Assembly: GCA_018302545.1 (NCBI GenBank)
Contig: JAGVZM010000005.1
Span: 1-51,675, forward strand
From: Candidatus Woesearchaeota archaeon
GTDB lineage: Archaea; Nanobdellota; Nanobdellia; SCGC-AAA011-G17; GW2011-AR18
Direction: 5' to 3'
Length of the DNA stretch: 51,675 bases
The translations under genes and the position numbers were made by a program. Positions 5,239 through 31,020 of this stretch are shown here, piece after piece. How positions within the stretch are numbered: the first letter of the stretch is position 1; the number at the start of each line of letters is the position of its first letter. A model generated the notes under the pieces. The model did not search any database. It was not told the DNA's origin and saw only the letters and a list, made by a program, of their open reading frames with translations.

Positions 5239-7005
5239 ATGGTTTTTGAGTTTTTGAATAATCTGGGGTGGTTTGCTTTTCTATCTTTGATTCCTTTCAT
5301 TATAATATATTTAATAAAACCTACTCCTTCAACATTGAAAGTTCCTTCTTTGATGTTCTTTATGCAGCATACTAAACAAAGCAAGGCTGCATCTTGGTTA
5401 AAATATTTATTTAGAGATTTACTATTTTTATTACAGTTGCTTGTTTTGTTATTATTAAGTTTTACAATTACTCAACCTTTTTTTTCTGCTTTTACAGATG
5501 TTGTTTCTGATAATATTGTTTTTGTTTTGGATACTAGTGCTAGTTCTAAGGTTTTAGAAGATAAGGATCTTTCTAGGTTTGATATTGCAAAGGAAAAGAT
5601 AGAAGAGTTTGCTACTTCTGAAAACTCATTGGTTTTATTAAAGTCTGAGCCTATTCTTGCTTTACAAGGAGTTAGTAAGGGTGAATTAAAGAGATATTTA
5701 AGCAGATTAGAACCTAGTGATGATGTGACAGATATTTCAAGTGCAATAAGTCTTGCTGGGACTCTATTAGAGAAGGATCAAGGAAGGATTGTGGTTGTTA
5801 GTGATTTTGCTAATAGTAAGGGTAGTGATTTTATTAATAGTAAATCTCTTGTTGAAAGTAAGGGAGTAGATGTAGATTTAGTTGATACTAAAATTTCTAA
5901 TAGATCCAATTTAGGTATTGTTGATATGATTATTAGTGAGGATACAGTTAATCTCTATATAAAAAATTTTAATAATAAAACTGAAAAGGTTTCTTTAAAA
6001 TTCAATAATGAACTTAAAGAGATTAATATAAATGCAAATGAAGTTGAGCCTTTTGTTTTTAAATTAAAAGATAATCTGACTAGAGTTGAGATTGTTAATA
6101 AAGATGATTTTTTGATTGATAATTCTGTTACTATTGTAAAACCTTATTCTAATTCAATTAATGTTTTATATATTGCAAATACTCCTTCTAAATATATTAA
6201 AGCAGTTTTAAATTCTATAGATAATTTAAATTTAGTAATAGCAACTCCTCCTGTTGTTCCTAAAGGAGATTATGATTTATATATTATTGGTGATGTTAAT
6301 AAGAAAGATATTGTCTTTGATACTTTTGGAGCTATAAAAAGAGATGTTGAGGAAAATGGCAAAGCAGCTATTATTTTAAGCAATCCACATATTAAGGATA
6401 TTGATTTTGAAGGTTTGATTACTTTGAATTTTAATGATCTTGTTAATGGGGGCAGTACTTCTATAAATCAAATCAATAAGTTTACTAAGGATGTTGAATT
6501 TGGAGAAGTTAAGAAAGTTTATTCAGTTGAATCTAAAGGGAATGTAATTGTTGAAACCTCTAACCAAAGTGTTGTTGAATTATTTAAACTAGGAAAGGGC
6601 AAGACAGTTTATTATGGAATTATGGAACATTATAGTGATTTTCATTTAACTCCTAGTTATCCCTTCTTTTGGAATAATCTAATTAGGTTTTTATTGGATA
6701 GGAAGGATTTGAATGAAGTAAATCTTAAAGCAGGAGATACTTTAGTTTTGGATAATCAGACTATTGTTTTAGATAAAGTTGGAGTTTATGATGTTAATAA
6801 TGCTAAATTTGCGATGAATCTACTTAATGAAAAAGAATCAGATATAAATTTTGTTTATCAAAATAAAGATATTGAATATTCTGGATCTGAATTAGAAAGA
6901 GTTAAGACTGAAGTTGATTATGATCTTAATTTTTATATAACTATATTAGTAACTTTTTTAGTATTAATTGAATTTATATATATCAAATTTAGAGGTGAGA
7001 TATAA
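5239..7005 (+). CDS. BatA-like membrane protein with N-terminal aerotolerance domain and vWA-like domain
   Basis: N-terminal FLNNLGWFAFLSLIPFIIIYLIKPTPSTLKVPSLMFF, DTSASSKV MIDAS-like segment, C-terminal TM. Confidence 0.7.
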   Translation: MVFEFLNNLGWFAFLSLIPFIIIYLIKPTPSTLKVPSLMFFMQHTKQSKAASWLKYLFRDLLFLLQLLVLLLLSFTITQPFFSAFTDVVSDNIVFVLDTSASSKVLEDKDLSRFDIAKEKIEEFATSENSLVLLKSEPILALQGVSKGELKRYLSRLEPSDDVTDISSAISLAGTLLEKDQGRIVVVSDFANSKGSDFINSKSLVESKGVDVDLVDTKISNRSNLGIVDMIISEDTVNLYIKNFNNKTEKVSLKFNNELKEININANEVEPFVFKLKDNLTRVEIVNKDDFLIDNSVTIVKPYSNSINVLYIANTPSKYIKAVLNSIDNLNLVIATPPVVPKGDYDLYIIGDVNKKDIVFDTFGAIKRDVEENGKAAIILSNPHIKDIDFEGLITLNFNDLVNGGSTSINQINKFTKDVEFGEVKKVYSVESKGNVIVETSNQSVVELFKLGKGKTVYYGIMEHYSDFHLTPSYPFFWNNLIRFLLDRKDLNEVNLKAGDTLVLDNQTIVLDKVGVYDVNNAKFAMNLLNEKESDINFVYQNKDIEYSGSELERVKTEVDYDLNFYITILVTFLVLIEFIYIKFRGEI

Positions 7006-9368
7006 TGTTTAACCTTCTTGCTTATTTTGAAAGGCCTTTTTTATTATTTTTAATAATTCCTATTTTAATATTTTTATTTTATTTTATTAATAAAAACTTG
7101 GTTAAATTATATGATTCTATTGATTTATTTCAATCTAAAAAGAAATTGAGAATTTTTGTTTTAGTAATGAGGTGTTTGATTTTTATATTTTTGGTTGTTG
7201 CTTTGGCTTCTCCTTTTATTGAGATTACAGATAAAACTCCTGGAAATCCTAGAATTAAGTTGCTTATTGATAATTCTAGTTCTATGGAACTTTTTAATCT
7301 TAATTTTTTAAATGACTTTGGAGTTAATCTTGAAAAACAAATTCCTGTTGAGACTTATTATATAGGAAGCGGTTTAGAATCTAATTTAGGAGAGAATATA
7401 CTTAGCAATGTTAAACCAGATGACAATGTCCTTTTGATAACTGATGGAAATAATCATGGAGGTGTTTCATTAGGAGATGTTGCATTACAAGCTGGAGATT
7501 TCAATATGACTTTTAGTTCATTAAATTTGAAACCAGATAAATATGATGTTTCTGTTATTATCTATGGAAGCTCTAAAACTCCGGCCAAGATAGAGAATAC
7601 TTTTAGTGTTTTGATTAGCCAAACTAATAAAAGACCTGTTCGTTTAGTTATTGAAGTTGATGGAAAAGTAGTTTTTGATGAAACTACTGATAAAGAAATT
7701 GTTAAAATAAAACAGTCTTTTGAAGTGGGACAACATAGAATTGTTGCTAAATTGGATGTTAATGATCATTTTGATAATAATAATATTTATTATAAAACTA
7801 TTAAAGTTATTCCTAAACCTAAAGTTTTATTATATACTTTGGACGGAAGTCCAAATCTTAAGACACTATTTGATCCTATTTATGAATTGAATGTTGTTAA
7901 AGATTTAGAGCTTGATTTAAAACCATATACAGCTATTGTTGTAGATGATTTAAATTCTGATAAATTAGATAAGTATGCAGATAAATTAACTGACTTTGTT
8001 TCTGAAGGAAACGGTTTATTAGTTTTAGGAGGCACTAATTCATTTGATTCTGGAAACTATAAAAGTTCAAGATTTGAGCAGCTGTTACCTGTTTTTGTAG
8101 CTAAATCTGGCAAAAAAGAAGGGGAAGTTAATCTTGCTATAGTTATTGATGTTTCTGGAAGTACTAGTTATGGTTTTGGGGGATATAGAAAAGTGGATGT
8201 TGAAAAAGCTTTAGTATTAAAGATGATTAATGATACTAGTCTTGTCTATAATGTGGGGGTTATTGCTTTTAATGATGTAGCTTATCTAGTTGCTCCTATG
8301 AAAAGATTGTTACTACATCAAGATTTAGATGATAAGATTAAGAGATTAACTTTTACTGGTGGAACTGACATGCTCCAAGGAATTAATGCTGCTTTGGTTA
8401 TGTTAAAAGGAAAGGGGGGTAGTAAAAATATTATAATCTTTTCAGATGGATATACTAATAATGAGGAGGCAATAAAAAGTGCAGCTGATTATGCTTCTAC
8501 TCAAGGTATTAAAGTTTATACTGTCGGTGTTGGAGGGACTGATGAGGATTTTATGAAAGACATAGCTAGAAGGGGAAATGGTATTTATTTTAAACCTGAA
8601 TTATCTAATCAACTTAAATTGATTTTTGGTGATACTCAAATTAGTGGAGATAAAAAATCTTTTGGTTTAGTTGTAGTTAATGAGGATCATTTTGTTACAG
8701 GCGGCATGATACTAGATGCAGATATTTATGGTTTTAATCAAGTTGTTCCTAAAAGTAGTGCTAAGCTTTTAGTTACTACAGATATAGGAGATCCTGTAGT
8801 GAATGTTTGGAGATTTGGTTTAGGAAGAGTTGCTTCAATAGCTACAGGCTATAGGCTGCATGGTGCTGAATTGCTGACTAAAGGGAATTCTTTATTATTA
8901 ACTAGATCTGCTAATTGGGTTATAGGAGATCCTGAAAGGAAGAATCCTGAATTCGTTGATGTTGAGGATGGTTTTGTAAATGATTATGTGGATGTAATTG
9001 TTAAGTCTCAAAAACAACCTAAAGCAGAGATAGGTTTATATAAATTTGATGATAATTTATATAAAGGTAAAATGTATGTTAATTTTACAGGATATAATAG
9101 AGTATTAGATACTATCTTTGCAGTTAATGATAAAGAAGAATTTAGAGATGTTGGTGTTAATAAAGAGTTAAATCAACTAATAAGTTTAACAGGTGGTAAA
9201 ATGTTTAGTCCAGAAAATATTGATGAAATTGTTGAATTTATTAAACAGAAGTCTACTAAAGTTAGACTGGTTAGAAAGAGTTATTCTTGGATATTTTTAT
9301 TAGCTGCTTTAATATTATATTTAGTTGAGGTTTGTGTAAGGAGATTGGTTGCTTATAGGGTGATATAA
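7005..9368 (+). CDS. vWA-domain membrane protein (BatA/BatB-like)
   Basis: Two N-terminal TMs, LAIVIDVSGSTSYG MIDAS, FTGGTDMLQGINAAL, IIIFSDGYTNNEE, C-terminal TM. Confidence 0.75.
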   Translation: MFNLLAYFERPFLLFLIIPILIFLFYFINKNLVKLYDSIDLFQSKKKLRIFVLVMRCLIFIFLVVALASPFIEITDKTPGNPRIKLLIDNSSSMELFNLNFLNDFGVNLEKQIPVETYYIGSGLESNLGENILSNVKPDDNVLLITDGNNHGGVSLGDVALQAGDFNMTFSSLNLKPDKYDVSVIIYGSSKTPAKIENTFSVLISQTNKRPVRLVIEVDGKVVFDETTDKEIVKIKQSFEVGQHRIVAKLDVNDHFDNNNIYYKTIKVIPKPKVLLYTLDGSPNLKTLFDPIYELNVVKDLELDLKPYTAIVVDDLNSDKLDKYADKLTDFVSEGNGLLVLGGTNSFDSGNYKSSRFEQLLPVFVAKSGKKEGEVNLAIVIDVSGSTSYGFGGYRKVDVEKALVLKMINDTSLVYNVGVIAFNDVAYLVAPMKRLLLHQDLDDKIKRLTFTGGTDMLQGINAALVMLKGKGGSKNIIIFSDGYTNNEEAIKSAADYASTQGIKVYTVGVGGTDEDFMKDIARRGNGIYFKPELSNQLKLIFGDTQISGDKKSFGLVVVNEDHFVTGGMILDADIYGFNQVVPKSSAKLLVTTDIGDPVVNVWRFGLGRVASIATGYRLHGAELLTKGNSLLLTRSANWVIGDPERKNPEFVDVEDGFVNDYVDVIVKSQKQPKAEIGLYKFDDNLYKGKMYVNFTGYNRVLDTIFAVNDKEEFRDVGVNKELNQLISLTGGKMFSPENIDEIVEFIKQKSTKVRLVRKSYSWIFLLAALILYLVEVCVRRLVAYRVI

Positions 9369-9818
9369 ATGGGTTTTATAAAAGATGCTTTGGATGTTAA
9401 GGTATTTTTTTTAGTAGTAATAATTGCTGTTTGTATGGTTGCTTTCTTAGTAGTTTTCCATAAAAATTTTGAAGATGTAAATACTAAATATGAAGAGAAA
9501 GTGGGGGAGTTAAATTCTACATATAATAAACTGCTTGGAACCCAGGAGAGATTAAATGAGACTGTAGAAGATTTAGAATTAACCAATCTTAAAGAAGAGG
9601 ACCTTAAGAAAAAGTATAATGAATTGCTTAATAAAAATGAGAGATTAGAGAAGGATAAACTTAATTTACAAAAGGAAGTTAGTGATAAGAACTCAGAGAT
9701 AGGTGATTTAAAGACTAAAAATACAGTTTTACAAGATAGTTTAGATAAGGAGAAATCTACTAATAGTAAATTAAGATCAAGAATAAACTGCTTTGAGGGT
9801 GGTGGTGCAAATTGTTAA
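9369..9818 (+). CDS. Membrane-anchored coiled-coil protein
   Basis: N-terminal TM followed by a long heptad-rich charged region. Confidence 0.55.
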   Translation: MGFIKDALDVKVFFLVVIIAVCMVAFLVVFHKNFEDVNTKYEEKVGELNSTYNKLLGTQERLNETVEDLELTNLKEEDLKKKYNELLNKNERLEKDKLNLQKEVSDKNSEIGDLKTKNTVLQDSLDKEKSTNSKLRSRINCFEGGGANC

Positions 9819-10591
9819 AGCAAGTGTTGGAAGAGATTACTACTAATATTACGGTTTTAAATTTAGGCAAGATCATCCTTGATTCTTTGTTGATTTTTGT
9901 GTTTTTTTACTTGTTTGTTGTTTTATTTAACTTAAGTGTTTATTATGCCTTAGTTCCTTGTTTGTTATTTTTTGGAATATCTTTATTTTATGATTTTCAA
10001 AAGAATAAATACTTAGTTGTTGAGCAGGGCTTTCCTGATCTAAATGAAAGACTTAGAACTGTTGCGGATTATGCAGATAAGAGTAATCCTATTTTAGATT
10101 TGCTTAAACAAGATGTTTTGAGAGATATAAGAAAAGTAAAAATGAGTAAATTTATAGATTATAAGTGGATGATAGTTAGAATTTTGAGTTTGACTATGTT
10201 GTCTATAATTGTAGTTATATTAGCTTATTCTAATGTTAGTTTTGGGTTTTCTTTAGGTGATTTACCTATAATTGGCGATAGCTCTTTAGGAGTTAGAGAA
10301 GCAGGAGACAATTTAACTAATACCAATTTGAGTTTTAAAACAGCAGATTTAAATAATATTTTGGGTAATGAATCTTTGGCAATATTGGGTAATGAAGAAT
10401 TACAACTTAAGGTTAATCCCTTACAAAGTAATACTGACTTGGATGATATAGGTGATGTTTTAGAGCAAGAATTTAGAGCTCCAACATTTCCAAAAGAGAT
10501 ATATACGAGTTATGATTTAGCATATCAAGATAATATTGCTAAAAATCAGAGAGAGGTTGTTAAAAACTATTTCCAACAAATAGCAAGGTGA
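9812..10591 (+). CDS. Multi-pass membrane protein of the MoxR/vWA cluster
   Basis: Predicted TM segments; TTG start overlapping the upstream gene; operon context. Confidence 0.5.
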   Translation: MLKQVLEEITTNITVLNLGKIILDSLLIFVFFYLFVVLFNLSVYYALVPCLLFFGISLFYDFQKNKYLVVEQGFPDLNERLRTVADYADKSNPILDLLKQDVLRDIRKVKMSKFIDYKWMIVRILSLTMLSIIVVILAYSNVSFGFSLGDLPIIGDSSLGVREAGDNLTNTNLSFKTADLNNILGNESLAILGNEELQLKVNPLQSNTDLDDIGDVLEQEFRAPTFPKEIYTSYDLAYQDNIAKNQREVVKNYFQQIAR

Positions 10592-10595
10592 TTTT

Positions 10596-11537
10596 ATGGT
10601 TGGTATGGACGAAATAAAAAAGAAATTTGATACTGTTTTTTCAGAAATTAATAAGGTTATAGTTGGTCAGGAAGACGTAGTAGAACAAACTTTAATTGCA
10701 TTATTATGCAATGGGCATGTTTATCTAGAAGGTTATCCTGGATTAGCTAAGACTTTACTTGTTAGGACTTTAGCAAATATTATGGATCTTAAATTTAGTA
10801 GGATTCAAGGTACTCCAGATTTATTGCCTAGTGATATCACTGGAACTTATGTTATTGATGAGAGTAAAGGTAAAAAAATGTTTAAGTTCCAGAATGGGCC
10901 TATTTTTTCTAATGTAGTTTTAGTTGATGAGGTTAATAGAGCAACTCCTAAGACTCATTCATCTATTTTAGAAGCTATGCAGGAGCATCAGGTTACAGTT
11001 GGAAATGAAACCTATAAATTGGAGAAACCCTTCTTTGTTTTAGCTACAGGTAATCCAATAGAACAAGAAGGAGTCTTTAGATTAAGCGAGGCGCAAATTG
11101 ATAGATTTTTGTTTAAAATTAATGTAGGATATCCTAAATTTGAAGATGAACTTAAAATCGTTGATAGATTTAATGATAAAGATTTTGAGGAAATTGCTTT
11201 GAAACAAGTCTTTAAATCTGTTGAATTAGTTAAGTTACAAGAATTAGTTAAACATGTTCCTATTGCCAATGATCTTAAAAAATATGCTGTTGAGTTAGTT
11301 GCTAGTACAAGAAATAAAAAAGATTTAATAGAATATGGTGCTAGTCCTAGGGCAAGTTTAGCTTTAGTTTATGCTAGTAAGGCTAGGGCTTTGATGAAGG
11401 GAAACAAACATGTTAGCAAAGAAGATATTAAAGCTGTTGCTTTTCCTGTATTAAGACATAGAATAATCTTGAGTTTTGAGGCTGAAAGAAAGGGTATGTC
11501 TGAAGATGATGTTATAAAAGAGTTAGTTAAAAAGTAA
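10596..11537 (+). CDS. MoxR-family AAA+ ATPase
   Basis: VIVGQEDVVEQTLIALLCNGHVYLEGYPGLAKTLL, IQGTPDLLPSDITGT, VLVDEVNRATPKTHSSILEAMQEHQVTVG, FVLATGNPIEQEG. Confidence 0.95.
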   Translation: MVGMDEIKKKFDTVFSEINKVIVGQEDVVEQTLIALLCNGHVYLEGYPGLAKTLLVRTLANIMDLKFSRIQGTPDLLPSDITGTYVIDESKGKKMFKFQNGPIFSNVVLVDEVNRATPKTHSSILEAMQEHQVTVGNETYKLEKPFFVLATGNPIEQEGVFRLSEAQIDRFLFKINVGYPKFEDELKIVDRFNDKDFEEIALKQVFKSVELVKLQELVKHVPIANDLKKYAVELVASTRNKKDLIEYGASPRASLALVYASKARALMKGNKHVSKEDIKAVAFPVLRHRIILSFEAERKGMSEDDVIKELVKK

Positions 11538-11562
11538 ATTTATTTTATCTTGTTTTCATTTG

Positions 11563-11982
11563 TTAGAATTTAGATTTTCCACTTATATTAAGCATATCTA
11601 TATTGGTTAGTATTCTCAATATTTTTTGTTTAGAAAAATCAGGATCGTGACTCCAGATTCCATACGAATCTGTTAAAATCGCTACTGCTAGATAAGGTAG
11701 ATCTTTAGGATCTTCTATTTTTTCTTTTATTTCTATAATTATCTTTTCATACTCCTCTTTTGATATTACTTCTATGTTTTCAAATAAAATAGCTAACAAA
11801 ATCTCGAATTCATTTTTTGTTATTTTTGCTTTTTTTATTATATCTTCTTCATATTTTCTTATTTCTGTAAATATAAAATCAGGTGAAATAAATTCAAAGA
11901 ATTGATCAGATATTATACTTCTTGTTGTACTCTCTTTTATTAGTGCTGCTATTATTCGATTACTATCAATTATAATTTTCAT
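11563..11982 (-). CDS. PIN-domain toxin (VapC-like)
   Basis: MKIIIDSNRIIAAL... plus DPKDLPYLAVAILTDSYGIWSHDPDF acidic residues of PIN nucleases. Confidence 0.8.
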   Translation of the reverse strand: MKIIIDSNRIIAALIKESTTRSIISDQFFEFISPDFIFTEIRKYEEDIIKKAKITKNEFEILLAILFENIEVISKEEYEKIIIEIKEKIEDPKDLPYLAVAILTDSYGIWSHDPDFSKQKILRILTNIDMLNISGKSKF

Positions 11983-12203
11983 TTCAAATTATGTTTTTTG
12001 GCTATTTCTTTTTTTATTTTATTTCCAATTTCTATAGCATCTTTTTCAGTTAATTGACTTTTAGAGAGAATTTTATCTAATAATTCCATTTTTCTTGCTT
12101 TTTCCCATATTGCTTGTCTTGCTACTTCACTCCATTTAATTTCTTTATGTTTCTCCATTATATTATACAAATCTTCTGGTATTGCTAAAGTCATATTTGT
12201 CAT
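11979..12203 (-). CDS. RHH-type antitoxin (VapB-like)
   Basis: MTNMTLAIPEDLYNIMEKHKEIKWSEVARQAIWEK; 4-nt overlap with the downstream PIN gene. Confidence 0.8.
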   Translation of the reverse strand: MTNMTLAIPEDLYNIMEKHKEIKWSEVARQAIWEKARKMELLDKILSKSQLTEKDAIEIGNKIKKEIAKKHNLK

Positions 12204-12216
12204 ATTCTTTTTCTCC

Positions 12217-12250
12217 TTAAGTAATTTATGTATATTAAGTAATTTTACTT
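12217..12250 (-). promoter_or_regulatory. Putative operator/promoter of the PIN-RHH pair
   Basis: Direct repeats TTAAGTAATTT at 12217-12227 and 12235-12245 (18-nt period) plus palindrome AAGTAATTTTACTT (12237-12250), just downstream of a minus-strand TATAAATA. Confidence 0.55.
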
Positions 12251-12418
12251 ATTTATATCTTTTTCTAAGTCTTTATCTTAATGATTTTAGTAACTCTTTG
12301 ATGTTGTAACTCTACAAATATTCCTCCTTATGAGTTAATTATGTCTATTCTGCTTTGTACATTTGATTATATAATTTATTATGGATAAATTTATTAATTA
12401 ATTTTTCCTTTAGATTTT

Positions 12419-13267
12419 ATGATAACTACAGAATTTCTTAGACAACTTGATAGATTTTCTTTAGTTATTAATAAGAAGGTTACTTCTAGTTTTGTAGGTG
12501 ATAGAGCAACTGAAAGATTAGGGAGTGGTTTGGTTTTTAGTGATTATGCTAATTATAATTATGGTGATGATTTTAAGAATATAGACTGGAAAGCTTATGC
12601 AAGGACAGATAAATTATTTGTTAAGAGATACGAAGAAGATAGGAATTTAACTGTTCATCTTGTTATTGATTATAGTGGAAGTATGGATTTTGGTACTAAG
12701 ATTAAAAAATATGAATATGCTTCTATGGTGGGTTTAGGATTTTGTTATTTAGCTTTGAAAAATAATGAGAGATTTGTTTTAGCAACCTTTGATGATACTC
12801 TAGATTTTTTTAGGCCTAAGAAGGGAATGGGACAGATAACTTCTATCTTAGGATATTTACAGGATAAAAAGGCTAAAGGACAGAGTAGTTTTCAGGATTC
12901 TTTAATAAAATATAGACAATTAATACACAGCAAATCTATGGTAGTTATTATTTCTGATTTCTTTTATGATATAGAACAAATTAAGACTATTTTGTTTAGA
13001 TATAAAAAGAATCATATTGTTTTAGTACAAGTTTTAGATAAATTAGAGAAGAATCTTAATATAGAAGGAGATTTTGATCTAGTTGATTTGGAGAGTAATT
13101 CTAAGTTACATACCTTTATAGATCCTTTTATGAGGAAACAATATTTTAAGGAGTTAGAAGTACATCAAGCTAGGATTAGAGATGCATGTGCTGAAGTAAA
13201 AGCTCATTTTTATGTTGTTGGTACAGATGAGAGTATATTTGATGTTTTCTATAGGATATTAGACTAA
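12419..13267 (+). CDS. DUF58 protein (vWA-like, MoxR-associated)
   Basis: RLGSGLVFSDYANYNYGDDFKNIDWKAYARTDKLFVKRYEEDRNLTVHLVIDYSGSMDFG. Confidence 0.9.
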   Translation: MITTEFLRQLDRFSLVINKKVTSSFVGDRATERLGSGLVFSDYANYNYGDDFKNIDWKAYARTDKLFVKRYEEDRNLTVHLVIDYSGSMDFGTKIKKYEYASMVGLGFCYLALKNNERFVLATFDDTLDFFRPKKGMGQITSILGYLQDKKAKGQSSFQDSLIKYRQLIHSKSMVVIISDFFYDIEQIKTILFRYKKNHIVLVQVLDKLEKNLNIEGDFDLVDLESNSKLHTFIDPFMRKQYFKELEVHQARIRDACAEVKAHFYVVGTDESIFDVFYRILD

Positions 13268-14304: not shown

Positions 14305-16416
14305 ATGTGTGGTATAGTGGGCGTATTTGGAAGTGAGAGTGCTAATCAAGAAGTAATCAAAGGTCTTAAAATTTTATTTAATAGAGGTAGAGATGGGTAT
14401 GGTATATTTGATGGAAAAAATGTTTCTTATTCTGATAATTTGAAGTTTGATGATCTTAATAATTCTAATTTGTCTATTGGTCATTGTTTGCATGCAGTTG
14501 TTAATAAAGTTAGACAACCATTTAAAGTCAAAGGAGTATTTGCTGTAAATGGGGAAATATATAATTGGAGTGAGCTTTCAAATAAGTATAATATTAAAGC
14601 TAAGAATGATGCTGAATTATTTTTTTTATTACTTGAAAAATTAGGGGTTAATAAAACCTTAAAATTAGTTGATGGAGATTATGCTGGTGTTTACTATAGG
14701 AATGATAAAATTTATTTGTTTAGGGATAGAATAGGTGTTAAGCCTTTATGGTATAGTCTAGAAAAAGGTTTAGCTTTTTCTTCTGAAAGAAAAGTATTAA
14801 GAAGTCTAGGTTATTTTGATGTCATAGAATTAAATCCTAGAGAGATATTAGTTTATGATACTAAAAATAAGGAGTATACTTTTGAGCAAAGAGGTTTTTT
14901 TCATATTAATAAATTAGATTTAGAGTATAAAGAATTAGTTAGTAAATTAAGTTTCTATTTGATTAATTCTGTTACTAGGAGAATCCCGGATGTTAAGCTT
15001 GGTTTGTTATTTTCTGGAGGTTTGGATTCCACGATAATTGCATTAATTCTTAAGAATCTTGGAATTGAATTTAAATGTTATTTTGCTTATGTTGATGGTT
15101 TGGGGATTGCTCAGGATTTAGATTATGCAGTTAGTGTTTCTAAAGAATTAGATTTGGATTTAGAAATAGTTAAAGTTGATCTTGATGAAGTTGAGAAGAA
15201 TTTGAATTTGATATGCCAATTGGTGGAGAGTAATAATGTCACTAAAATTAGTGTTGCTTTGCCCTTTTATTTTGCTTTGGAAAGAGCGAAAAAAGATAAA
15301 GTTAAAGTTATGTTAAGCGGGCAAGGCAGCGAAGAATTGTTTGCAGGTTATGATAGACATATTAAAAGTGATGATGTTAATAAGGAGTGTTATAATGGAT
15401 TACTTAATATTTATGAGAAAGACCTTTACAGGGATGATGTTATTGCAATGTATAATTCTATAGAACTTAGAGTTCCTTTTTTGGATTCTTGGCTTGTCAA
15501 TTTTGGGTTAAGTATAGATGGAAAATATAAAATAAATCAAGAGGGTAATAAAGTTATTTTAAGACATTCTGCAATTGAATTAGGCCTTAAGGAACATTTT
15601 GCATTTAGAAAAAGAAAAGCTGCACAATATGGAAGCAATTTTTTAAAAGCTATTGATAAGTTGTCTAGAAATCTCAAATTTAACAGTAAGTCTGAATATT
15701 TGAAGTCTCTTTATGATGAGGGAAATGTTAAATTAGCTGGTTTGTTAAGCTCTGGTAAAGACAGCTTATATGCTATGTATACAATGATCAAACAGAATTA
15801 TGAAATTAGGTGTGCTGTTACAATTAATAGTAAAAATAAATATTCCTATATGTATCATACACCTAATGTTGAAATGGTTAAATTGCAGACTGAAGCTATG
15901 AAAATACCTCTAATAATGTTTAATAGCAATGGGGACAAGGAGGATGAACTTGAAGATTTGGAAGCTGCTTTGATTCAAGCCAAAGAGGATTATAAAATAG
16001 AAGGAGTTGTTTCTGGTGCTATTTATTCTAAATATCAACGTGATAGGGTTCAAAAAGTTGCTGATAAACTTGGTTTGAAAGTTTTTACTCCTTTGTGGCA
16101 TATGGATCAGGAGAGGTTATTAAGAGAATTATTAAAAAATAAATTTAGATTTATTATTTCAAGTGTTGCTTCTGATGGATTAGGGGAGAAATGGTTAGGT
16201 AGAGAGATTGGACTTAAAGAAGTTGATGAACTTGTTAAGTTGAGTAAAAAATATGGAATTCATCCTGCTTTTGAAGGGGGAGAAGCAGAGTCTTTAGTTT
16301 TAGATTGTCCTATGTTTAAGAAGAAGTTGAATATTGAAGATGCAAAAAAAATAATTGAGGATGAATATTCTGGATTTTATTTTATTAACAAAGCTCAATT
16401 AATTGATAAGAATTAA
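14305..16416 (+). CDS. Fusion: class-II glutamine amidotransferase/asparagine synthetase plus Dph6-like (DUF71) ATP-pyrophosphatase domain
   Basis: MCGIVGVFG catalytic Cys2; LFSGGLDSTIIALIL; GQGSEELFAGYDRH; then LAGLLSSGKDSLYAMYTMI, GVVSGAIYSKYQRDRVQKVADKLGLKVFTPLWHMDQERLLREL, HPAFEGGEAESLVLDCPMFKKKL typical of Dph6. Start shifted to 14305 to expose Cys2. Confidence 0.85.
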   Translation: MCGIVGVFGSESANQEVIKGLKILFNRGRDGYGIFDGKNVSYSDNLKFDDLNNSNLSIGHCLHAVVNKVRQPFKVKGVFAVNGEIYNWSELSNKYNIKAKNDAELFFLLLEKLGVNKTLKLVDGDYAGVYYRNDKIYLFRDRIGVKPLWYSLEKGLAFSSERKVLRSLGYFDVIELNPREILVYDTKNKEYTFEQRGFFHINKLDLEYKELVSKLSFYLINSVTRRIPDVKLGLLFSGGLDSTIIALILKNLGIEFKCYFAYVDGLGIAQDLDYAVSVSKELDLDLEIVKVDLDEVEKNLNLICQLVESNNVTKISVALPFYFALERAKKDKVKVMLSGQGSEELFAGYDRHIKSDDVNKECYNGLLNIYEKDLYRDDVIAMYNSIELRVPFLDSWLVNFGLSIDGKYKINQEGNKVILRHSAIELGLKEHFAFRKRKAAQYGSNFLKAIDKLSRNLKFNSKSEYLKSLYDEGNVKLAGLLSSGKDSLYAMYTMIKQNYEIRCAVTINSKNKYSYMYHTPNVEMVKLQTEAMKIPLIMFNSNGDKEDELEDLEAALIQAKEDYKIEGVVSGAIYSKYQRDRVQKVADKLGLKVFTPLWHMDQERLLRELLKNKFRFIISSVASDGLGEKWLGREIGLKEVDELVKLSKKYGIHPAFEGGEAESLVLDCPMFKKKLNIEDAKKIIEDEYSGFYFINKAQLIDKN

Positions 16417-19356: not shown

Positions 19357-21984
19357 ATGAATAAAGACATTAAAAAATATTTAGGAATTGCACATAACTT
19401 TTTTAAGAAAAATGGATGGTGGCTACAATATCTAGTTTTAATTCTAATAATTTTAATTGGAGTTTATATAAGAGTACAACCAATACCTAATTTAGTAGAT
19501 CAAACTACAGGTGAATATATCTCTTTAGAGTTAGATTCTACTTATTTCTATAGACTAGCTCAGGAAATAGCTCAAAATGGTAAATTAAATGAGACGGATA
19601 GTATGGTGTCTGCTCCTTTAGGACAACCTAATATTTTTTATGAGGTATATACTGCCTATTTTGTTGCTTATTTATGGAAAGTGTTAAGCTTTTTTGATGG
19701 TTCTTTAACAGTTGAATATGTTGATTTAATCTATCCTATTCTTGCAACTGCTATAATGAGCTTATTTTTGTTTTTATTATTAAGAAGGATTTTAGGTTGG
19801 AAAGTTGCTTTATTATCTACTTTAATTTTAAATGTTATTCCCTCTTTTTTATTTAGAAGTTTAGGTGGCAGTTCGGACCATGACATCTTAGTAATGATGT
19901 TTGTGGTTATGGTGTTTTATTTTTATTTTGTTGCTTGGCAATCAACTAAACTTAGAAATAATATCTTATTTGCAGTTATTACTGGTTTGCTTACTTATTT
20001 TGCTGATATTAGTGGAGGAGCCAGTTTGTTTATATTTACAATTATAGGAATTACTGTTTTGATAAATATTCTATTAAATAAATTTGATAAAAAAGATTTT
20101 TATGTTTTATTAATCTGGTTATTAACTTTTAGTATTTTAATACAATTTTTTGGTATAGGTGTAAAGTTTTATTTAATGTCTTTAACAACTATACCTGCAT
20201 ATTTTGCTTTATTAGTTGGATTTTTTGATTTTATATTATTTAAATTAGATTATTATAAATATATTAGAGAACATGTTAAATATAATTTACCTAATGGAAT
20301 TATAAGTTTAATATTTTCTGTAGTTTTTGGGTTTATTTTTGCTTTGATATTTATTGGGATTAATAACCTCATAGCTAACTTTTTGGATATGTATACTTAT
20401 GTTTTTAAAGCATTTCAATATGGTAGGGTTGGTATTACTGTAGCTGAAAATAGAAGATCTTATGTTGTTGATCTTTTTGCTCAATTTGGTGTTTTATATG
20501 TTTGGTTATTTATATTAGGTATGATTTTATTATTTTTTAAATCTATGAAATCTTTATCTAATACTATTAGAAATAAGTTAGTAGTAGTTTTTACTGTGTT
20601 TTTATTACTTTATATATTTTCTAGATATTCATCTAATTCAGTTTTAAATGGGGAGAGTACATTATCCCAGATTTTGTTAATAGGTGGAATATTCTTATTT
20701 TTAATTTATTATATCTATACTTATTTTAGATCTTATTATAAAGACCCTTCTTTGTTTAAATCTCTTCATGATATAGAACACAAATATTTATTTATTATAA
20801 TCTGGGGTTTAATTATGGCTATTGCTTCTACTACAGCTATTAGATTATTTTTTGAATTCTCAGTTATTTTTGTTATATTGGTAGCTTACTTTTTTGTTTT
20901 TGTTATTGATCTTTTTAGTAAACTGGAATATACAATTGTTAAATATTTAGGTGTTTTAGCGGTTTTATTAATTTTGTTTAGTCCATTTTCATTTGCTAAA
21001 GGCTTTGTTTATGAGGATTATGAGAGGAGTTTTAATCAGGCTAAATTTTCTGGACCAGGGTATAATACCCAATGGCAGTTAGCAGGTAAATGGGCTAGAG
21101 AGAATACAGATGTAGGAAGTACTTTTGTTCATTGGTGGGATTATGGTTATTGGGTACAAAGCGGATTTGATAGGCCTACAGTTACTGATGGTGGAAATAA
21201 AATTCATTGGTGGAATCATTTAATAGGTAGAAATGTTTTAACTGAGACTAACCTTACAATACCTCTTAAATTTATGAAAGCACACAACGTTAGTCATTTA
21301 TTAATAATTAATGATGAAATTGGTAAATATCCTGCTTATTCTAGTATAGGAAGTGATGAAAAAGGGGATAAAACTAGTTATCTTGTTACCTATCTTTTAG
21401 ATCCTGCAAATTCTAAAGAGACTAGAAACTCTACTTTGTTGTTTTATAGGGGAGGTTTTCCTCTTGATGAAGACTTTGTTTATAATGGGCAGGTTTATCC
21501 TAAAGGCCAAGCTGGAATAGGTGCAGTAATTTTACCTATTCAGAATGTTGAAAATTCATCTTTAGTTATTGGGCAACCAAGTGTGATTCTTGTTCATGGA
21601 AATCAGCAAATTACCTTGAGTATGAAGTGTGTTTATATAGATAGAATTTATAATTTTGATAATTATTCCTATCCTGGTTGTTTTAGAGTTATGCCTCTTA
21701 TAAGAAACAATCAAGCTAATAATTTTGGTGCTGGTATTCTTATCTCTCCTAAAGTAACTGATACTTTGTTTGCTAGGCTATTTTTATTTAATGAAAAACA
21801 TCCTAATTATGAACTAGCTTATGATGATAGTTATAGAACTCCTTTAGCTTTATATAATGGGGTAATGATAGGTCCTTTGAAGATCTGGGAAATAAATTAT
21901 CCTAATAATTTGACTTTAACAGAGGAAGAATTAGAATTCTTTTTGAGAACTACTTATCCAGATGAAAACCTGAGTAGAGTTTGA
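19357..21984 (+). CDS. aglB: Oligosaccharyltransferase STT3/AglB
   Basis: Many TMs; GGSSDHDI; catalytic-region motif HWWDYGYWVQSGFDRPTVTDGG. Confidence 0.9.
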   Translation: MNKDIKKYLGIAHNFFKKNGWWLQYLVLILIILIGVYIRVQPIPNLVDQTTGEYISLELDSTYFYRLAQEIAQNGKLNETDSMVSAPLGQPNIFYEVYTAYFVAYLWKVLSFFDGSLTVEYVDLIYPILATAIMSLFLFLLLRRILGWKVALLSTLILNVIPSFLFRSLGGSSDHDILVMMFVVMVFYFYFVAWQSTKLRNNILFAVITGLLTYFADISGGASLFIFTIIGITVLINILLNKFDKKDFYVLLIWLLTFSILIQFFGIGVKFYLMSLTTIPAYFALLVGFFDFILFKLDYYKYIREHVKYNLPNGIISLIFSVVFGFIFALIFIGINNLIANFLDMYTYVFKAFQYGRVGITVAENRRSYVVDLFAQFGVLYVWLFILGMILLFFKSMKSLSNTIRNKLVVVFTVFLLLYIFSRYSSNSVLNGESTLSQILLIGGIFLFLIYYIYTYFRSYYKDPSLFKSLHDIEHKYLFIIIWGLIMAIASTTAIRLFFEFSVIFVILVAYFFVFVIDLFSKLEYTIVKYLGVLAVLLILFSPFSFAKGFVYEDYERSFNQAKFSGPGYNTQWQLAGKWARENTDVGSTFVHWWDYGYWVQSGFDRPTVTDGGNKIHWWNHLIGRNVLTETNLTIPLKFMKAHNVSHLLIINDEIGKYPAYSSIGSDEKGDKTSYLVTYLLDPANSKETRNSTLLFYRGGFPLDEDFVYNGQVYPKGQAGIGAVILPIQNVENSSLVIGQPSVILVHGNQQITLSMKCVYIDRIYNFDNYSYPGCFRVMPLIRNNQANNFGAGILISPKVTDTLFARLFLFNEKHPNYELAYDDSYRTPLALYNGVMIGPLKIWEINYPNNLTLTEEELEFFLRTTYPDENLSRV

Positions 21985-27112: not shown

Positions 27113-28990
27113 ATGTGTGGTATAACTGGAATAATTTATTTTAAACCTAAAGATTGTAAAAAGTTTGTAAAGACTTTAAAAAACATGACTGATATTCTTA
27201 ATCATAGAGGTCCGGATGATTCTGGATTTTTTATTGCTAATTCTAGTAGTAGAAAATTTTCTAATTCTTTAAATAGAGTAAGTGGTAATTTTGATGTTGC
27301 TTTTGGCCATAGAAGATTAAGTATTTTAGATTTATCAAAAAAGGGAAAACAGCCAATGTCTAATAGAAATAAAAATTTATGGATTATATTTAATGGAGAG
27401 ATATATAATTATTTAGAATTACGTGAAGAATTGAAACTTAAAGGATATAAATTTAAAACAGGCACTGATACAGAAGTTATTCTTGCTGCTTATCAAGAAT
27501 GGGGAACAAATTGCTTTAATAGATTTAATGGTATGTGGGCTATAGCTTTATATGATGTTAAGAATAAAAAAGTTATATTTTCTAGGGACAGATTTGGAGT
27601 AAAACCTTTTTATTATTTTATGGATAAAGAAAAAATAATATTTGGTTCTGAGATTAAATCTATTTTAGCTTATCCAAATTTGAATGTTAAACCTAACTAT
27701 AAAGTTATTTATGATTATTTGAAAACTGGTTTGTTAGACCATACTAATGAAACTTTTTTTGATGGAATAAAAAAATTAAGTGGAAGTAGTTATGCTATTG
27801 TAGACTTTAAGAGTATGAAAATTAGTAAATATTGGCAATTGAAAACTAGAGGAATTTTAGGAGAACCTATTAAAAGTTTTAGGGATTTATTTACAGATTC
27901 TATTAATCTTAGATTAAGGAGTGATGTTCCTGTTGGTACTTGTTTAAGCGGAGGTATAGATTCTAGTTCTGTTGTTTGTGTTTTTAATAATCTTTTATAT
28001 AAATTTAAAGATAAAAATAGTAGGAGGGGGTTACAAAAAACTTTTTCAGCTTGTTTCAATAATAAAGATATAGATGAAAGGAAATATATTGAAGAATGTT
28101 TAAGTAAAACTAATGCTGAAAAGAATTATGTTTTTCCTGATTCAAAGGGACTTTGGAAAGATCTTAATGATCTTATTTATGTTCAAGAAGAACCTTTTGG
28201 TAGTACTTCTATATATTCTCAATATAATGTTATGAGACTTGCAAATAAAAAAGTTAAAGTGTTATTAGATGGACAAGGTTCTGATGAGTTGCTTGCAGGT
28301 TATATTCCTTATATTAAGTCTTATATTATTAGTTTAATAAAAAAAGGAAAGTTCTTTACTGCTTTACGAGAATGTTTATTAACGTTAGATATAACTCTCC
28401 CCTTTTTTATGAATTATATTAAAACCTCAAAGAAGAATAGAATTATGAATTTAATGTGTGGTCCGTTTTTTAATAATTCCATTGTGGATAATTCTCTAAA
28501 TAAGTGGGGCACAAGTAGTTTGAAAGATACTTTGGGGGCAGATTTTAGTAGTTTAAGCTTACCTGCTTTATTAAGATATGAGGATAAGAATTCAATGGCC
28601 TTTTCTATAGAAACAAGATTACCTTTTTTGGATTATAGGTTGGTTGAGTATGTTTTTAGTCTTGATGATACATATAAGATCCATAATGGTTGGACTAAAT
28701 ATATACTTAGGAGAGCGATGAAGAATTTAGTTCCTAGTAAAATTCTAAGAAGAAGAAAAAAACTTGGTTTTGCTACTCCAGAAGTTATTTGGTTAAGAGA
28801 ATTGAAAAGTGAAATTAGAAATGTTTTTGTTTCTGATAAATTTGCTAAACGGGGATTATTTAATCAGAGTTTAGTATTAAGCGAATTTGATAAATTTGTT
28901 AAAGGAAACAAAGATCATTATTATCCTCTTTTTTGGAGATTATTATGTTTGGAAATCTGGTTTAGGGTTTGGATAGATAAAAGACTCTAG
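27113..28990 (+). CDS. Asparagine synthase (glutamine-hydrolysing)-like amidotransferase
   Basis: MCGITGIIYF, NHRGPDDSGFF, GEIYNYLELREEL, LSGGIDSSSVVCVF, DGQGSDELLAGY. Confidence 0.9.
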   Translation: MCGITGIIYFKPKDCKKFVKTLKNMTDILNHRGPDDSGFFIANSSSRKFSNSLNRVSGNFDVAFGHRRLSILDLSKKGKQPMSNRNKNLWIIFNGEIYNYLELREELKLKGYKFKTGTDTEVILAAYQEWGTNCFNRFNGMWAIALYDVKNKKVIFSRDRFGVKPFYYFMDKEKIIFGSEIKSILAYPNLNVKPNYKVIYDYLKTGLLDHTNETFFDGIKKLSGSSYAIVDFKSMKISKYWQLKTRGILGEPIKSFRDLFTDSINLRLRSDVPVGTCLSGGIDSSSVVCVFNNLLYKFKDKNSRRGLQKTFSACFNNKDIDERKYIEECLSKTNAEKNYVFPDSKGLWKDLNDLIYVQEEPFGSTSIYSQYNVMRLANKKVKVLLDGQGSDELLAGYIPYIKSYIISLIKKGKFFTALRECLLTLDITLPFFMNYIKTSKKNRIMNLMCGPFFNNSIVDNSLNKWGTSSLKDTLGADFSSLSLPALLRYEDKNSMAFSIETRLPFLDYRLVEYVFSLDDTYKIHNGWTKYILRRAMKNLVPSKILRRRKKLGFATPEVIWLRELKSEIRNVFVSDKFAKRGLFNQSLVLSEFDKFVKGNKDHYYPLFWRLLCLEIWFRVWIDKRL

Positions 28991-29061
28991 GATTTAGTGA
29001 ATGTATTTTTTTATATTAATAAAGCTTATATATGTTTTTAATTTCCTTCCATTTGCTTAAT

Positions 29062-31020
29062 ATGTGTGGAATAACAGGTGTTTTTGGATTTGAAGATAAA
29101 GATCTTCTTAAGGAAATGGTTGGGATTTTGAAACACAGGGGGCCTGATTCTAAAGGTTATTTTTTGGATAAAAATATAATGTTGGGACATAGTAGATTAA
29201 GTATTATAGATCTTTCTGAAAAGGGAAATCAACCGTTATTTAATGAGGATAAATCTATGGCTATAATTGCTAATGGTGAGGTGTATAATTTTAAGAGCAT
29301 AAGAAATGAATTAGAGAAAAAGGGTCATAGATTTTCAAGTGATACTGATAGTGAAGTTATATTGCATTCATATGAAGAATATGGGTTGGACTTTGTTAAA
29401 TTACTTAATGGTTGTTTTGCTTTTGCTATTTGGGATTCTAATAAAAAACAAATGATATTAGCTAGAGATAGACATGGAATGAAACCTTTATTTTATACTT
29501 TTAATAATGGAAATTTTCTTTTCGGTTCTGAGATTAAGGCCATATTAATGCATAAAGATGTAAAAAGAGAAATTGATCCTATAGGTATAAATTATTTTGT
29601 AAATTTAAGATATTTTCCTAGAGATTCTACTCCCTTTTTTGGTATTAAGAAATTTTTACCTGCTTATATTATGGTTCTAGATAAAAATGGAATTGTGTCT
29701 TATGAGGAATATTGGAGACCTAAACTAGATTTCACAAATGAGTCTTTTGATGCTATTGTGTCTAATGTAGATAAAAAATTAGAGGAAGCTGTAAAACTTA
29801 AAATGACCTCTGATGTACCTGTTGCTTTTTTATTGTCTGGGGGAATTGACAGCAGTAGTTTAGTTGCTTATGCTTCTAAATTAGTTGACACTCCATTAAA
29901 AACCTATACTATGGGTTTTGGTGAAGAACAAGATGAGATAAAAGACGCGCAGGTTATTGCTGATTATTTTAAAACAGATCATGAAGTTTTGTCTATGAAA
30001 ACAAATTTAATTAAAGATTCTCCTAAATTGATTTGGCATGCTGATCATCCTAAAAGAAATTTATATCCTTATTATATTTCTAAATTAATCTCTGGTAAAG
30101 TTAAAGTTGTTTTAGGTGGTATAGGTGCTGATGAATTATTTGGAGGTTATAGTTGGAAGTATGTTGTTTCTAATCTTGCCTTAGATACTCGGAAAAATTT
30201 AGATGTTTCTGGAATGAAAAATGAAGTAGTAGAGAGTGCTAGAAAAATTTTACAATATCAAACTAGACATGGTTTTATTGAAGATGATAGATTTTTAGAA
30301 TATATAAAACGTTTGGCTAATATAGACAATAATACTGAATTGTACTTTATTTTTAAAACCTTAGATGAGGTTTATAATAACCATTATTTAAATAGGATAT
30401 ATCATGAAGACTTTTTTGAAAAAATACAAGAACCTTATGATAAAATAAAGAAAATTTATGAAACTTATTTTAATAACAATCATTCCTTTGTTGATCAAGT
30501 TCTCTTGACAGATTATTCTGTCAAATTAAAGGATGATTTTCTATTTGTGGATGATCATATGACTATGGCAAATTCTCTTGAATCGAGATCTCCCTTTTTG
30601 GAGAATAATTTAGTGGATTATTCTTTTACTATACCTTATAAATATAAGATTTTTAATCTTAGTAACTATCAACAAGGTAACCACATAGGGAAATTTGTTT
30701 TAAGGATGGCTGTAAAGGATAAGCTGCCTTCTAGAGTTTTTGATAAGCCTAAACAAGGTTGGGGTTCTGATGTTTTTGTTACTTATAAAACTGAATTAAA
30801 ACAATTTGCTCAATCCTTACCTGAGAGTTCAATCGTTAAAGATAAGATTATTAAAAAAGACTATATACATAATATATTAAACCACTATGAGAGTAGGAAT
30901 TTAATTAAGCATTATTGTACAATTTGGAATCTATTTGCTTTTGAAATTTGGAATAAAATGTATATCCATGATACAAATATTAAAAATCCAAATTTTAATA
31001 TAAATAATTATCTTAATTGA
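29062..31020 (+). CDS. Asparagine synthase (glutamine-hydrolysing)-like amidotransferase
   Basis: MCGITGVFGFEDK, KHRGPDSKGYF, LLSGGIDSSSLVAYA, GGIGADELFGGY; start moved from 29032 to 29062 to expose Cys2. Confidence 0.9.
   Translation: MCGITGVFGFEDKDLLKEMVGILKHRGPDSKGYFLDKNIMLGHSRLSIIDLSEKGNQPLFNEDKSMAIIANGEVYNFKSIRNELEKKGHRFSSDTDSEVILHSYEEYGLDFVKLLNGCFAFAIWDSNKKQMILARDRHGMKPLFYTFNNGNFLFGSEIKAILMHKDVKREIDPIGINYFVNLRYFPRDSTPFFGIKKFLPAYIMVLDKNGIVSYEEYWRPKLDFTNESFDAIVSNVDKKLEEAVKLKMTSDVPVAFLLSGGIDSSSLVAYASKLVDTPLKTYTMGFGEEQDEIKDAQVIADYFKTDHEVLSMKTNLIKDSPKLIWHADHPKRNLYPYYISKLISGKVKVVLGGIGADELFGGYSWKYVVSNLALDTRKNLDVSGMKNEVVESARKILQYQTRHGFIEDDRFLEYIKRLANIDNNTELYFIFKTLDEVYNNHYLNRIYHEDFFEKIQEPYDKIKKIYETYFNNNHSFVDQVLLTDYSVKLKDDFLFVDDHMTMANSLESRSPFLENNLVDYSFTIPYKYKIFNLSNYQQGNHIGKFVLRMAVKDKLPSRVFDKPKQGWGSDVFVTYKTELKQFAQSLPESSIVKDKIIKKDYIHNILNHYESRNLIKHYCTIWNLFAFEIWNKMYIHDTNIKNPNFNINNYLN

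Follow-up and report, generated by a model that had tools for sequence, protein, structure and literature searches.

An apparently remodelled asparagine synthetase-like domain between glutaminase and Dph6 in archaeal fusion proteins

What does a protein do that joins, on a single chain, a class-II glutaminase domain (GAT), a PP-loop domain resembling that of the asparagine synthetase AsnB (here P), and a second PP-loop domain of the diphthine–ammonia ligase Dph6? The question is raised by a contig of Candidatus Woesearchaeota archaeon (GCA_018302545.1, JAGVZM010000005.1, positions 1 to 51,675; 'the window' refers to this whole stretch of 51,675 nucleotides), in which a first-pass annotation had read a 703-amino-acid frame of this composition as possibly a glutamine-dependent diphthamide synthase or a new dual amidase. 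Neither the architecture nor the idea that GAT feeds both synthetase domains turned out to be new. A GAT–AsnB–DUF71 fusion with the same order of domains as the window protein (GAT, Asn_synthase PP-loop, DUF71) was described in 2012 in Methanohalophilus mahii, Methanosalsum zhilinae, and Nanosalinarum, and its authors proposed that GAT provided ammonia for both the DUF71 and the Asn-synthase domain (de Crecy-Lagard et al., PMC3541065). Dph6 requires ammonia (PMC3541065), and the source of ammonia in diphthamide synthesis is unsettled. What the asparagine synthetase-like domain catalyses was a question put by a reviewer of the 2012 paper; the paper leaves it unanswered, and we found no later papers on the fusion or on the reaction of its middle domain. 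With the architecture already published, the new element here is the status of P: the 2012 paper treats this domain as AsnB, whereas we find that the AsnB site has been rewritten, that the domain is kept without GAT, and that the fusion is common across Woesearchaeota. The results on P turn the reviewer's question into a testable one.

The frame itself held up (Table 1). The matches of the 703-amino-acid protein to GATase_7 (63 bits), Asn_synthase (138 bits), and Diphthami_syn_2 (226 bits) all exceeded the curated Pfam cut-offs, and MCGIVGVF, SGGLDS, and SSGKDS were all found in it, so that the open reading frame, the Pfam matches, and the motifs together confirmed the single frame with a class-II glutaminase and two PP-loops that the annotation had described. 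Weaker Pfam matches to DUF7411 and QueC were set aside as general PP-loop similarity. An in-frame TTG 21 bases upstream of the ATG would extend the protein to 710 amino acids. Four further genomes from the family of the window organism encode full-length three-domain proteins with 55–64% identity, and 96 of the family proteins that we collected, which came from Woesearchaeota, Diapherotrites, Nanohaloarchaea, and Methanosarcinales, carry all three domains. This recurrence rules out a sequencing or assembly artefact merging two genes, an explanation to which we attach a negligible chance. An AlphaFold2 model, built on 75 fused proteins, had a mean pLDDT of 94 and a pTM of 0.91, with all three domains packed together. 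When its GAT–P part was compared by Foldseek with human ASNS (6gq3) and E. coli AsnB (1ct9), the TM-scores by target were 0.79–0.80; in the model, the fusion retains the glutaminase–synthetase arrangement of ASNS. Just upstream of the fusion gene, at 7005–13267 (+), lie in a row a BatA-like von Willebrand protein, a MoxR-type ATPase, and a DUF58-like protein, named from a reading of their translations.

Table 1. Features of the fusion gene in the window (positions in nucleotides; aa, amino acids of the 703-aa protein).
Feature	Position	Strand	Basis or remark
Three-domain CDS, GAT–P–Dph6, 703 aa	14305..16416	+	Intact ORF, ATG start; Pfam/NCBIfam domains; AlphaFold2 model
GAT domain, aa 1–195	14305..14889	+	Cys2 nucleophile (14308–14310), Asn82, Glu84, Asp102 kept
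P domain, aa 205–472, AsnB-like PP-loop with probably remodelled acceptor side	14917..15720	+	Pfam and family alignments
P PP-loop SGGLDS, aa 237–242	15013..15030	+	S237, G239, D241, S242 invariant in 109 proteins with GAT and 51 without
SGQGSEELFAGYDRH, aa 338–352	15316..15360	+	Gln340 at the place of AsnB Glu348 (Leu in most relatives); GY followed by a new conserved RH
YRDDVIAMYNSIELR, aa 375–389	15427..15471	+	Y375, D378, E387 track GAT presence; D378/E387 align with human ASNS Asp-405/Glu-414
RKRKAAQYGSN, aa 435–445	15607..15639	+	Family signature replacing AsnB KEQFSDG loop
Dph6 (diphthine–ammonia ligase) domain, aa 476–700	15730..16404	+	TIGR03679 279 bits; TM-score 0.96, rmsd 1.3 to PF0828 3rk1
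Dph6 PP-loop SSGKDS, aa 482–487	15748..15765	+	Motif comparison
Dph6 signature EGGEAE (EGGExE), aa 657–662	16273..16290	+	Sets Dph6 apart from DUF71-B12 subfamily (PMC3541065)

The C-terminal domain proved to be a genuine Dph6, as the annotation had it. The protein passed the NCBIfam model Dph6_archaeal (TIGR03679) with 279 bits against a cut-off of 197.3, and it has the PP-loop, SYMYH, YQ, and EGGExE motifs of Dph6 rather than the ENGEF/YH of the B12 type; the kept EGGExE excludes a DUF71-B12 identity. When we compared residues in the PF0828 numbering of PMC3541065, those named in that paper for ATP, diphthine, and EF-2 were kept both in the window protein and across 105 fused proteins; the exceptions are the conservative changes of Gly13 and Thr189 to Ser (also in most fused relatives) and of Ala149 to Ser in the window protein. 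The rest of the pathway, for which the annotation had advised a search, is complete: the fusion is the sole PF01902 match of the genome, which has no other dph6, and we found dph2 (340 amino acids, with conserved cysteines), dph5, and an EF-2 bearing the target histidine, within LHEDSIHRGPAQI / KLHEDSIHRGPAQI. The fusion is likewise the sole Dph6 in 17 of 18 other fusion-bearing genomes checked, including Methanolobus, Methanococcoides, Methanohalophilus, and Nanosalina. Because established knowledge of the family agrees with the tests of model, residues, and pathway, the fusion is very likely the diphthamide synthetase of the window archaeon.

P is a different matter. Diphthamide as such can be made without it: well-known archaea, Pyrococcus among them, have a working Dph6 but no P, and in one large family within the phylum many genomes show no P match. 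The co-occurrence of P with Dph2 across the phylum says little about a link between them, because Dph2 is nearly universal there and P also turned up in genomes scored as lacking Dph2.

The label of asparagine synthetase, which the annotation had given to this middle domain, did not survive comparison with the family. The fusion missed the asparagine synthase model TIGR01536 (245.7 bits against a cut-off of 267.1), and alignments of P, initially of 31 domains and then of about 160 (109 from proteins with GAT and 51 from proteins without it), revealed changes in the part of the AsnB site that faces the acceptor: about 80% of the family have Leu where AsnB has Glu348, and VxKVG stands in place of the Thr-Thr-Ile-Arg segment throughout (NVTKIS in the window protein, mostly NVVKVG in relatives). 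Both Glu348 and the Arg of Thr-Thr-Ile-Arg are needed for β-aspartyl-AMP formation in E. coli AsnB. Across the 160 proteins the family keeps SGGxDS, the Lys449 position (E. coli AsnB, Cys1 numbering; a like residue, Arg437, in the window protein), and the counterpart of human Arg-403, all invariant or nearly so, and it has new, strictly kept positions in GYxRH and RKKxAAQYGS. This core is unchanged with or without GAT, except for Lys314, which is less kept in the absence of GAT. The residues of human ASNS that contact β-aspartyl-AMP (Gly-365, Asp-367, Glu-368, and Arg-403; PMC11615228) have like counterparts in G341, E343, E344, and R376 of the window protein, given which an Asp-like substrate for P is possible. 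Because the cut-off was missed and the acceptor side is rewritten across the relatives, P is better not named an asparagine synthetase. It probably belongs to the AsnB superfamily in remodelled form, and we found no dedicated NCBIfam family for it.

Two other AsnB-type genes in the window do pass the AsnB cut-off (27113–28990, +, 459 bits; 29032–31020, +, 431 bits). These amidotransferase genes stand side by side near sugar-nucleotide enzymes, and an STT3-like gene lies upstream of them at 19357–21984.

Turning to the glutaminase, we found counterparts of the N-terminal Cys, Asn74, Glu76, and Asp98 all in place (Cys2, Asn82, Glu84, and Asp102). Arg49 of class-II glutaminase holds the glutamine carboxylate. 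At the position of E. coli AsnB Arg49 the window GAT has Leu62, followed by the family-conserved His63; among the 109 GATs of the family, the former is Leu in 100 and the latter His in 102. The conserved His may stand in for Arg49, and because Leu has replaced this Arg we only infer that GAT uses glutamine.

The columns around the ammonia gate bear on which domain GAT might serve. In human ASNS, the gate residue Arg-142 is held by Asp-405 and Glu-414 (PMC11615228), and these three align with Lys146, Asp378, and Glu387 of the window protein. The Asp-405-like acid is found in 100 of 109 proteins with GAT versus 5 of 51 without, the Glu-414-like acid in 102 of 109 versus 18 of 51, and Tyr375 in all 109 versus none of the 51. 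Tyr375 also followed the presence of GAT in each of five independent pairs (those starred, with genes cut by contig ends left out; p = 0.0625, the minimum attainable with five pairs). Because the gate columns track GAT and neither the ATP site nor the new signature does, the pattern supports both a working tunnel from GAT to P and a function of P's own. The sequence comparison gave no evidence of a tunnel onward to Dph6, and ammonia would most likely go first to P and not straight to Dph6. Of the earlier suggestion that ammonia is channelled to one or both of the synthetase domains, the part concerning P thus gained support from the gate columns and the part concerning Dph6 gained none.

Fused or alone, P was present in 250 of the 371 genomes of the phylum that we sampled, where it takes several forms: roughly 90 full GAT–P–Dph6 fusions, P–Dph6 proteins of ~500 amino acids without GAT, GAT–P proteins with Dph6 elsewhere, and solo P proteins of ~290–330 amino acids. 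A further scan of genome contigs added Diapherotrites, Nanohaloarchaea, Methanosarcinales, Methanomicrobiales, Syntrophoarchaeum, and Altiarchaeota. In a tree built by a quick method and rooted by a long outgroup, P formed one clade apart from AsnB (99*), with GAT–P branching first and then GAT–P–Dph6. This tree implied 8 changes in the presence of GAT and 9 in the fusion to Dph6, a few of which stem from genes cut by contig ends. As judged from these sequences, GAT has been lost several times while the P core persisted.

In many lineages P is fused to Dph6, adjoins it, or overlaps it in tandem, and solo P adjoins solo Dph6 in several genomes; elsewhere, solo P often lies beside aIF5B, a DRG-type GTPase, and prefoldin beta (gene names from a reading of the sequences). 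In nine genomes of the order around Methanolobus, the GAT–P gene overlaps or abuts the start of the Dph6 gene, and in seven of these nine GAT lacks Cys2 (MGRIAG or MSRIAG) while P and Dph6 are kept. Most of these methanogen genes with a dead GAT have the P PP-loop SAGIDS instead of SGGIDS.

Our best reading, to which we assign a probability of about 0.55, is that the sole Dph6 of this archaeon is coupled to a remodelled, AsnB-derived amidoligase module tied to the diphthamide or translation-factor pathway. The reading builds on features apparent from sequence, namely the three domains, the complete pathway, the Dph6 residues, the non-AsnB signature, the repeated loss of GAT, and the gate columns that follow it; from these we infer the catalysis by each domain, the path of ammonia, and the link of P to diphthamide, the last because of fusion, gene order, and the translation-gene context. 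The N-terminal glutaminase would hydrolyse glutamine, and its ammonia would pass through an ASNS-type internal tunnel to P, which, as a remodelled ATP-pyrophosphatase/amidoligase that has a conserved site of its own, would activate a carboxylate with ATP and then amidate it. The C-terminal Dph6 would amidate diphthine on EF-2 using ATP and ammonia, drawn from solution or from the same source. In relatives lacking a working glutaminase, P would have no need of glutamine. A more specific version, which we advance tentatively and at rather less than even odds, would make P an archaeal enzyme not recognised before, either an amidoligase or an adenylating enzyme, for the modification of EF-2 or a translation factor, driven by glutamine where GAT is live and by ammonia where GAT has been lost. 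Our literature search found no biochemistry on P or on any fused form.

A simpler protein would be the glutamine-dependent diphthamide synthase favored by the annotation and also contained in PMC3541065, in which GAT makes ammonia that P simply conducts and Dph6 spends on diphthine. The need of Dph6 for ammonia, its fusion in many lineages, and the close packing of the three domains in the AlphaFold2 model would all suit such a protein, which is possible. We nonetheless consider it unlikely, because a conduit would not need the invariant ATP site and the active-site core that P keeps even without GAT. P moreover persists beside a dead GAT or as a separate gene, the signs of coupling lie between GAT and P, and P–Dph6 proteins of ~500 amino acids exist without any GAT. 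Less probable again is the idea that one chain holds two unrelated enzymes, Dph6 and a true asparagine synthetase that depends on glutamine, which share ammonia or were joined by chance. The ASNS-like fold over GAT–P and the chemically kept aspartyl-contacting residues would fit it, but the score below the curated AsnB cut-off, the family-wide replacement of Glu348 and of the Thr-Thr-Ile-Arg segment, the two other AsnB-type genes in the window, and the retention of P without GAT and adjoining Dph6 all speak against it.

P might also have ceased to be an enzyme and have become a docking scaffold for EF-2 or for a Dph6 dimer, with the glutaminase as a relic. Such a fate would accommodate the loss of Glu348, the dead or missing GAT of several lineages, and the SAGIDS loop of a methanogen group. 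However, the near-invariance of SGGxDS, the Lys449 position, and the Arg-403-like residue in 160 proteins is the pattern of a live ATP-pyrophosphatase, and solo P proteins are found apart from Dph6, which together leave the scaffold as a very improbable account.

The coupled amidoligase module that we prefer can be set beside several known systems. Stand-alone archaeal Dph6 proteins (PF0828, PDB 3rk1; PH1257, PDB 2d13) resemble the C-terminal domain of the window protein in fold (TM-score 0.96) and motifs, but, unlike the fusion, they lack GAT and P and their ammonia source is unspecified. AsnB and ASNS (1ct9, 6gq3) share with the fusion the GAT and PP-loop fold, the Cys nucleophile, SGGLDS, the Lys449 position, the Arg-403-like residue, and the basic gate with its acidic partners; the fusion family differs in having Leu or Gln for Glu348, VxKVG for TTIR, RKKxAAQYGS for KEQFSDG, and Leu for Arg49 of GAT, and in scoring below the family cut-off. 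Eukaryotic Dph6 is likewise joined to a proposed supplier of ammonia, its C-terminal RidA-like (YjgF-YER057c-UK114) domains (PMC3541065, PMC3585130), although these are unrelated to GAT–P and sit at the opposite end of the protein. The β-lactam and carbapenam synthetases (1mbz, 1q19; TM-score by target about 0.73–0.76) are a precedent for an AsnB-derived GAT–PP-loop pair in a new use, in their case lactam-ring closure in antibiotic synthesis and with no fusion to Dph6.

P emerges as a distinct, strictly conserved family that survives without glutaminase and is tied to Dph6 by fusion and gene order. Residues of interest for mutation are Gln340 (or Leu), Lys314, R351-H352, Y375, D378, E387, and C2. 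We caution that the GAT–P proteins of Woesearchaeota, nanohaloarchaea, and methanogens are not to be listed as asparagine synthetase on homology alone.

Three further observations concern genes of the same pathway or neighborhood. In a single case (L132:16-3150, +), the frame of a DRG-type GTPase, apparently shortened at its end, runs stop-free into GAT–P–Dph6 to give 1045 amino acids; either a frame error or a genuine fusion of four parts could account for it. The EF-2 gene of the window genome (G000:C9, reverse strand) contains a large apparent intein inside the GTPase P-loop (AHIHHGK / CISKDSRL ... VAEGIFMHN / TALTDN), and our literature search found no report of an EF-2 intein in archaea. 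Finally, Dph2 of the window genome is full-length (G000:C12:18528-19418), and across most of the phylum's genomes the PF01866 (Dph2) match is confined to positions ~62–290, in frames of roughly 230 amino acids. In each of the 14 genomes checked, a separate gene of 85–103 amino acids carries the N-terminal part of Dph2; it adjoins the main gene in one (L228: 272-544, then 535-1278) and is usually located elsewhere. Across Woesearchaeota, then, the Dph2 gene appears to be split, and some reports that Dph1/2 is missing may be due to this.
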